This document shows positions 10,472 through 13,372 of a stretch of DNA of 64,000 nucleotides, piece by piece. Source of the stretch: an uncultured Pelagibacteraceae bacterium (lineage in GTDB: Bacteria > Pseudomonadota > Alphaproteobacteria > Pelagibacterales > Pelagibacteraceae). How positions within the stretch are numbered: the stretch's first letter is position 1; the number at the start of each line of letters is the position of its first letter. The stretch spans positions 1-64,000 of the forward strand of contig CACAFC010000002.1 in assembly GCA_902531765.1 (NCBI GenBank). The letters are read 5' to 3'. Made by a program: the position numbers and the translations under genes. The notes under the pieces were generated by a model. The model saw only the letters and a list, made by a program, of their open reading frames with translations, did not search any database and was not told the origin of the DNA.

Positions 10472-12172
10472 ATGCAATTAAGTAGAATAAACAGTTTAGT
10501 AGAACTTTTTTTTTCCAAGTATAAAGAAATAAACTCAGTTGCCGATAAGCCATTTTTAAAATCGTTAAAAGACAATGAAAAAGATTTTTTAACTTGGCAA
10601 CAGGTTGCATTAAAAATTCAAATTTTATCTGAATACCTAAGAACAAATTTAGCTGATGGAGACCGATGTATACTATTATCTGAAAATCGACCTGAATGGC
10701 TTATCTCTGATATATCAATAATGAATGCAGGCGGTGTCACAGTACCATTATTTACAACTTATTCAGAGAAAGATTATGAATACATCATTAATGATTGTAA
10801 GCCAAAAATTTGTATTGTCTCTAATGAAATCCAATTAAAAAAAATTGAAAAATTTATTTCAGAAGAGATTAAAGTTTTATCTATTGAAAATATAAATGAA
10901 AGAGTTGAAAACATAGAAAATATATTCGATGCATATTTAGAAAAAAAGAAATCAGATGCTCATATAAGTTTTAATCAAAATCTTGAAAGGAAAGATCTTG
11001 CTTGTATAATTTATACATCTGGAACGACTGGTAATCCTAAAGGGGTAATGCTTAGTCATGGAGGAATTTTATCAAATTGTGAAGGAGCTCAAGAAATATT
11101 AAATCAATTAGTTCAAAATAGTGAACCTACTTTTTTGACATGGTTACCGTTATCTCATTCGTATGAGCATGCAGTTCAATTTGTTCAAATCTCGCTTGGT
11201 GCAAAAATTTATTATGCTGAAAGCCTGGAGAAGTTGTTATCCAACATGTCTATTGCAAAACCCACAATTATGACAGCTGTCCCAAGATTTTACCAAAATT
11301 TGTACAGCAAAATTTCAATTAATTTTTCAAAGCAGAAAGGTTTAAAGAAAAAATTGATTTCATCCACGATTTCACTTGGAATTAAAAAACTTAATAATGA
11401 AAATTTTACACTTAGGGAAGAATTGATTAATTTCTTTTGTGAAAAACTAGTAAGAAAAAAGATCAAAAATCAGTTTGGTGCAAAACTAAAGGCCTTTGTA
11501 TCTGGGGGTGGTGCCTTAGACCAAAAAATTGGAGAATTTTTAAACGCTATAGGATTACCTACTCTTCAAGGTTACGGTCTTACCGAGGCCTCACCTGTTG
11601 TGAGCTGTAATATTCCTGGAAAAATCAGAATCGACACAGTTGGGCCCCCTTTTAAAACAAACCAGGTAAATATAGCTGAAGATGGTGAAATTTTAGTAAA
11701 AGGTGAAAATGTCATGCTTGGTTATTGGAATATGAAAAAAGAGACAGCTGATGTCATAAGGAATGGCTGGTTGCATACCGGTGACATTGGAGAGATCACT
11801 GAAGATGGAAATTTAAAAATCACCGATAGAAAAAAAGAAATAATCGTTAGTCTTGGTGGAGATAACATTTCACCATCTAAAATTGAAAATTTGTTATGTT
11901 TAAATGAAAAAATTAAACAAAGTTTTATTTATGGAGACAAAAAAACTTATTTAGTTGCATTAATTGTCTCTGAGAGTGATGAAAATAGGAAAGAAATTGA
12001 GTTTTTTTTAGAAAATTTAAATAAAACTTTATCTTTAGTCGAAAAAGTTAAAAAATTTAAATTAATTAAAGAAGAATTTTCAATTGAAAATGGAATGTTA
12101 ACACCAACATTAAAACTAAAAAGAAAAAAAATTTTAGAAAAATATAAAGATGATTTAGAAAAACTTTATTAA
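10472..12172 (+). CDS. Long-chain acyl-CoA synthetase (AMP-binding)
   Basis: IIYTSGTTGNPKGVMLSH, QGYGLTEASPVVS, TGDIGEI, DRKKEIIV. Confidence 0.9.
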   Translation: MQLSRINSLVELFFSKYKEINSVADKPFLKSLKDNEKDFLTWQQVALKIQILSEYLRTNLADGDRCILLSENRPEWLISDISIMNAGGVTVPLFTTYSEKDYEYIINDCKPKICIVSNEIQLKKIEKFISEEIKVLSIENINERVENIENIFDAYLEKKKSDAHISFNQNLERKDLACIIYTSGTTGNPKGVMLSHGGILSNCEGAQEILNQLVQNSEPTFLTWLPLSHSYEHAVQFVQISLGAKIYYAESLEKLLSNMSIAKPTIMTAVPRFYQNLYSKISINFSKQKGLKKKLISSTISLGIKKLNNENFTLREELINFFCEKLVRKKIKNQFGAKLKAFVSGGGALDQKIGEFLNAIGLPTLQGYGLTEASPVVSCNIPGKIRIDTVGPPFKTNQVNIAEDGEILVKGENVMLGYWNMKKETADVIRNGWLHTGDIGEITEDGNLKITDRKKEIIVSLGGDNISPSKIENLLCLNEKIKQSFIYGDKKTYLVALIVSESDENRKEIEFFLENLNKTLSLVEKVKKFKLIKEEFSIENGMLTPTLKLKRKKILEKYKDDLEKLY

Positions 12173-12290: not shown

Positions 12291-12319
12291 TTGACATAAC
12301 GTGTATAAAAAAATAAAAA
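12291..12319 (+). promoter_or_regulatory. Putative sigma70 promoter for the 25-aa basic protein gene
   Basis: TTGACA at 12291-12296; weak -10 (TAAAAA, 12314-12319) at 17-nt spacing. Confidence 0.4.
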
Positions 12320-12330
12320 TAAGTTAATCG

Positions 12331-12347
12331 CGAATCAATTTGATTCG
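12331..12347. promoter_or_regulatory. Perfect 8-bp inverted repeat CGAATCAA-T-TTGATTCG
   Basis: Seen directly; outer GTTAA/TTAAC arms extend the dyad with a small asymmetric bulge. Confidence 0.6.
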
Positions 12348-12370
12348 TTTAACTAAAAAGGGAGCTAAAG

Positions 12371-12448
12371 ATGCCTAAGAGAAGAAAAAAAGCAAAGAAG
12401 GCTAAGAAAAAAGCTAAGAAAAAAGCTAAAAAAAGAAGAAGAAGATAA
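12371..12448 (+). CDS. 25-aa Lys/Ala/Arg-only basic protein, histone-H1-tail-like (not in ORF track)
   Basis: MPKRRKKAKKAKKKAKKKAKKRRRR*; purine-rich GGGAGC upstream, terminator downstream, TTGACA-type promoter. Confidence 0.7.
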   Translation: MPKRRKKAKKAKKKAKKKAKKRRRR

Positions 12449-12466: not shown

Positions 12467-12508
12467 AAAAAACGCTTCTCATAACTTTTTGTGTGAGAGG
12501 CGTTTTTT
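12467..12508. terminator. Rho-independent bidirectional terminator
   Basis: AAAAAACGCTTCTCA / TGAGAGGCGTTTTTT stem with one T-G wobble, 12-nt loop, T tract; between convergent genes. Confidence 0.9.
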
Positions 12509-12514
12509 TTACTC

Positions 12515-13372
12515 CTATATTTGTTCATCATCCTCTGAGATTGGCTCTTCAACAGTTAATTCACTTGTGCTTGAGGAAGAACCTGGTGTCTTAGCACCTT
12601 TATCTTCTTCCTTTACTTCCTTATTAAGATTTCTTTTAAGTGCTTTATCAAGTTTTTTTTGCGTATCTTCTCTTGAAACATTTAAAACAATTTGGAATTC
12701 AGAAAGAATCCGATCATAGGCTTTCTCAAACAGTTGTCTTTCACTATAAGATTGATCAATCATTAAATCATCACCTTTATTTAGATCTCTTACTACCTCG
12801 GTTAATTCATAAATTTTACCAGAAGAAATTTTTGACTCATATTCTTGAGCTCTTCTACTCCACATGGATCTTTTAATTTTTGGTTTGCTTTTTAAAATCG
12901 AAATACTTTTATTAACTTGATTAATTGTTGAAAGTGGACGTAAATGAGATTGTTTATTGACTGGCACCATACCGTTAGCTTTGTCTTTTTCAAACTTTAT
13001 AATATAGGTTTCAACATCAATACCACCAATATTAATTTTCTTAAATTCTGTAATTTGACCTACACCATGTTTAGGGTACACAACATAATCTTTAATTTTA
13101 TATTCTCTCTTTTCAGTATTTTGTTTTTTTACTTTTTTGATTTCAGGTTTAATTTCATTGCTCTTGGGAATTCTTAGATTCTCATTTGGAACTTCTGTTT
13201 TCTGTTTATTCTTTTTTCCAACTTTTTTTGGAATCTTTGAAATTTTCTTTACTTTTTTTAGGTTGATAGTTTTTGATTTTTTAACTTTTTTAGTTGTTTT
13301 TTTTTTGACTTTTGATTTGGTTTTTTTTTTAAAGGTTTTCTTTAAAATATTTTTCAAACTTATTTGGCTCAT
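12515..13372 (-). CDS. CarD/CdnL-family transcriptional regulator with Lys-rich N-terminal extension
   Basis: Core [17 protein letters not shown]...[40 protein letters not shown]. Confidence 0.88.

Follow-up and report, generated by a model that had tools for sequence, protein, structure and literature searches.

The stretch of DNA analyzed here (the window, 64,000 nt) contains on its plus strand a short open reading frame (12371..12448, stop included; ATG at 12371, TAA at 12448) that encodes the 25-residue peptide MPKRRKKAKKAKKKAKKKAKKRRRR and remains open in relatives. The frame lies between an upstream gene on the same strand (10472-12172), named as an acyl-CoA ligase by the original prediction only, and carD (12515..13372, minus strand), to which it is convergent; the large genes that follow carD, up to 17122, are likewise on the minus strand. 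The carD gene, which we do not claim as part of the micro-gene, belongs to the CarD/CdnL family according to Pfam domains CarD_C and CarD_TRCF_RID, and its synteny with the micro-gene holds in both families considered below. The window derives from a Pelagibacteraceae (SAR11) genome: all matches to this CarD in the collection of named genomes were from SAR11 (Pelagibacteraceae, Candidatus Pelagibacter), the closest isolate being AG-390-I17 (95% over residues 59-285). No ORF of 20–40 aa with at least 85% K+R+A occurred in thirty 64-kb sequences simulated with an order-2 Markov model of the window’s trinucleotide composition, indicating that such a frame is not expected by chance, and the frame at 12371 is the sole ATG-started ORF of 20–40 aa in the window even at 60% K+R+A.

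Signals for separate transcription and for translation surround the frame. The promoter (12291..12320, plus strand) consists of TTGACA at 12291-12296, which is kept in nearly all Pelagibacteraceae units and also in the sister family, and a weak AT-rich −10 element at ~12315-12320 located by consensus scan. A Shine-Dalgarno sequence, AGGGAG (12359..12364, plus strand), stands 6 nt before the ATG within AGGGAGCTAAAG, a motif present in 132 of 136 units. Downstream, a strong GC hairpin followed by a T-run, conserved in relatives, forms an intrinsic terminator (about 12467..12510; z = −4.4 for the folded stretch), which can also serve carD on the opposite strand because an A-run lies upstream and the stem sits between both stop codons. 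The original prediction had thus correctly placed a 25-aa frame of Lys, Arg, and Ala plus Met-Pro between a TTGACA −35 and a terminator directly after it; its “long” leader measures only ~50 nt, which is not unusual, and its GGGAGC element (12360-12365) exists but is part of an ordinary Shine-Dalgarno sequence with nothing special about it.

Near the 5′ end of the mRNA, the leader is predicted to fold into a hairpin (12323..12353, plus strand; GUUAA..CGAAUC-loop-GAUUCG..UUAAC; −13.6 kcal/mol, z −2.05). The CGAATC/GATTCG arms occur in almost all Pelagibacter leaders around a variable loop, and a 5′ arm CGAATCA followed by a paired arm is seen in both families. The 3′ arm changes among genera with pairing kept (CGAATC/GATTCG in Pelagibacter, CACTTAG/CTAAGTG in g7, ATCACATA/TATGTGAT in g5, and a G-U pair in g9), as judged by inspection without a covariation statistic. 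The hairpin probably stabilizes or regulates the message, and constitutes a candidate RNA element without an Rfam match (12323-12353 in the window; L031-L053 and L212-L223). Two other explanations of the palindrome were rejected: GAATC-n-GATTC does not mark a regulon, since each genome holds just 2–3 such palindromes, of which about one lies at the micro-gene, and CcrM GANTC sites do not explain it, since other genera lose GANTC in the 3′ arm while pairing persists. Leaders of the sister family (L031-L050) carry a near-invariant AACCTCTAACTAAACCC ahead of a GGGGGGAG Shine-Dalgarno sequence, which the C-rich part of AACCTCTAACTAAACCC could pair with and mask.

Loss of the reading frame in relatives had been named beforehand as an observation that would refute a protein product. 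The prediction withstood this check: of 147 complete carD loci in Pelagibacteraceae (a few genomes were counted twice), 146 contain the gene with its frame open, and four further loci were interrupted by contig ends inside the ORF. A first round of 140 same-family loci, again with a few genomes counted twice, yielded 136 complete and four contig-cut ORFs; these comprise 67 different DNA sequences, which translate into 40 different proteins of 21–38 aa, with no residues after Met other than K, R, A, and a few T, S, P, and G. A second set, drawn from genomes picked because the search pattern had missed them, added 11 family loci: nine with an ATG-started frame of 20–58 aa (in L213 from an inner MAKRRKK... 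start), one with a GTG start (L221, 31 aa), and the sole broken copy (L214 in draft genome G554; reverse strand, ~1400-1470), in which a frameshift falls at an A8 run near the ORF end and sequencing error, slippage, and real loss cannot be told apart. Lengths across the family therefore span 20–58 aa, mostly 20–38 aa, and indels preserve the frame. Of 344 family genomes, 284 gave exactly one match to the pattern; the rest were incomplete or had variant starts, and several of them were shown to have the gene at the locus. No genome matched the reversed control. One pattern match, in G134, lay at the beginning of a 455-aa glutamate-synthase-like ORF and was discarded as a non-member.

Substitutions among these genes follow a coding pattern. 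Across 34 nearest-neighbor pairs of equal length, third positions accounted for 36 of 48 differences, and 37 differences were synonymous versus 11 non-synonymous, giving a dN/dS of 0.09–0.12 at an assumed transition bias of 2–8; the figure is rough because pairs were compared without tree correction. Amino-acid replacements were mostly between K and R, and although 37% of random single changes would introduce a residue other than K, R, A, T, S, P, or G, none was found in the 40 distinct proteins. The micro-gene is under selection, for positive charge. Lysine is encoded by AAG in 29% of lysine codons in the micro-gene family versus 13% in the window’s long ORFs, as if runs of A were being broken up. 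With the frame, a dN/dS near 0.1, and the conservation of promoter, Shine-Dalgarno sequence, and terminator in agreement, we regard 12371-12448 as almost certainly a real gene, single-copy and separately transcribed, of Pelagibacterales; the real product anticipated at the outset is borne out to that extent, in the absence of expression data. The gene is likely absent from annotation, which we have not shown, and RefSeq hypothetical-protein entries could exist.

Longer counterparts were found in f2, a sister family in the same order, where all 18 carD loci that reach the site carry a gene for MEELKVIFAKARKKAKKKAAPKKKRKAAKRKPAKKK... of 40–91 aa in the same position and orientation, and one additional locus with such a gene was found later. 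The f2 form is a KAAPKKK-repeat protein in the style of histone H1 tails and AlgP, preceded by a leader hairpin of the same kind. Within the window’s own family, genus g7 has intermediate KPAAKK forms of 34–58 aa (e.g., MAKKRKKAAKKKVAKKPAKRKVAKKKPAAKKRKPAAKKKAPAKKRKPAKKKTAKKRKR). The kinship of short and long forms is based only on position, leader, and composition, because low complexity permits no significant alignment; a profile search with the short-form alignment was likewise too low in complexity to score (best E 0.02). No comparable K-rich ORF lay beside carD in 40 loci of other alphaproteobacterial families, where such genes may exist elsewhere in the genomes. The short form of 20–38 aa is best read, on this positional evidence, as a putative reduction of a longer H1-tail-like polypeptide.

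Neither the short nor the long forms matched Pfam or NCBIfam at E values up to 1, and Rfam gave only sub-threshold matches. The element is not among the structured-RNA candidates reported for P. ubique by Meyer et al. (2009), and the open-access papers searched contained nothing relevant on lysine-rich, histone-like, nucleoid, or small-ORF proteins of SAR11; a single apparent match to a CarD/Pelagibacter transcriptome turned out to concern CARD-FISH.

We propose, with a probability of roughly two in three, that the micro-protein is a free-standing, H1-tail-like polypeptide that packs nucleic acid; its expression, DNA or RNA binding, and target are inferred and not supported by data. A disordered polycation acting by charge is suggested by the composition, the lack of hydrophobic residues, the changes in length by repeat unit, and the kinship to KAAP forms, as in H1 tails, Hc2, and AlgP. 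Such a peptide, with an inferred charge of ~+20, would bind DNA, and possibly also RNA, irrespective of sequence, and may neutralize and compact the nucleoid; HU/IHF-family proteins are present, so it would do this alongside them. A 25-mer lacks any domain that could direct it to a specific target, and its true partner could instead be RNA, the ribosome, or some other polyanion. We advance only tentatively the fuller hypothesis that a protamine-sized, tail-only H1-like peptide serves SAR11 as a core chromosome compactor; on this view it arose by shortening of a longer H1-like ancestor, and gene callers overlook it because it is so small, while proteomics misses it because of trypsin cleavage.

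The main rival, which we consider unlikely, is that the peptide belongs to the ribosome or associates with it, as a very small protein threading through rRNA. The protein eL41 has 25 aa and mycobacterial bL37 ~24 aa, and these and other ribosomal micro-proteins resemble the SAR11 peptide in being K/R-rich products of free-standing genes; single-copy status, family-wide conservation, the strong Shine-Dalgarno sequence, and the conserved leader would also suit such a role. However, ribosomal micro-proteins have a fixed length and specific non-basic anchor residues, whereas the SAR11 form varies freely in length and residues by repeat units, has no fixed anchors beyond charged residues, and has a 40–91 aa KAAP repeat as its sister form. 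No PDB chain matched the micro-protein, albeit in phmmer searches, which are weak on such sequences.

Somewhat less probable still is that the polycation serves a different polyanion or assembly, for example polyphosphate granules, or is a partner of CarD/RNA polymerase. AlgP, with similar KPAA repeats, organizes polyphosphate granules (PMC9239181), but PP_kinase was not found in four near-complete genomes that all have the micro-gene (G012, G061, G190, and G065), which disfavors polyphosphate as the common target. Polyphosphate kinase is patchy in SAR11 (G000, G012, G061, G190, G065, G037, and G038), occurring in the window’s genome and in G037 and not in five other near-complete genomes. A partnership with CarD would fit the conserved convergence of the two genes, the lysine-rich N-terminal extension of the CarD product, and the finding that Myxococcus CarD is fully active only with its HMGA-like tail (PMC4374960); the link is possible but consists only of synteny and the common terminator. 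The extension comprises ~85 residues (13120-13372, minus strand) before the RNA-polymerase-binding domain, is lysine-rich in the sister family too (L040), and possibly represents another H1-like tail encoded in this neighborhood. Finally, a small RNA or attenuator with an accidental ORF, which the conserved leader hairpin and terminator and the sub-threshold Rfam matches might suggest, is very improbable given the third-position variation, the low dN/dS, the in-frame indels, and the lack of an Rfam match at gathering score, and attenuation of an adjacent gene is excluded because a leader peptide requires a downstream gene on the same strand, while carD is convergent and the genes that follow it are also on the opposite strand.

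Few cell types on Earth are as numerous as SAR11, the most abundant bacteria of the ocean, and their genomes hold very little non-coding DNA; a gene kept across their species yet apparently unannotated therefore likely matters. If the proposed packing role is correct, few known nucleoid proteins would be as small as a tail-only H1-like peptide of 20–25 aa, and the lengths from 20 to 91 aa form a natural series in which to ask how little tail suffices for DNA packing. Standard marine metaproteomics could hardly detect the peptide, as trypsin, cleaving behind almost every residue, leaves pieces only a few residues long, and the same over-cutting problem has been noted for the lysine-dense tails of AlgP (PMC9239181).

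Compared with known systems, the micro-protein is likely a minimal form of the histone H1-like lysine-rich protein type (AlgP/Hc2/BpH1). The 40 distinct proteins have the defining composition of K/R and A(/P/T) without acidic or hydrophobic residues, and repeat units with in-frame length variation occur in both families (20–58 aa and 40–91 aa). Strict membership in chlamydial Hc1/Hc2 would call for a match to a curated profile, which is lacking; the histone H1/Hc1-like composition first proposed has thus gained strength as a likeness to H1 tails, because positional orthologs in f2 and g7 are longer KAAP/KPAA-repeat proteins, and remains without Pfam support as Hc1 homology. Chlamydia Hc1/Hc2 and Bordetella BpH1 share lysine/arginine-alanine repeats and frame-keeping length variation by repeat unit, as described for Hc2 (PMC2848022), but Hc2 has 165–237 aa and Hc1 a conserved N-terminal domain. 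Protamines are similar in composition and in presumed charge-driven compaction, but the micro-protein has no globular domain and there is no evidence of common descent. The KPAA-repeat C-terminal domains of Pseudomonas AlgP and PhaF are tails on structured N-terminal domains, in a protein of 352 aa, whereas the SAR11 form is free-standing, as short as 20–25 aa, and mostly proline-free, and no polyphosphate kinase was found in several of its hosts. Both nevertheless consist of Lys/Ala(/Pro)-rich, low-complexity repeats, disordered in AlgP/PhaF and by inference in the SAR11 form, the sister-family and g7 forms being alike in style, and AlgP/PhaF peptides of such composition bind DNA (PMC9239181).
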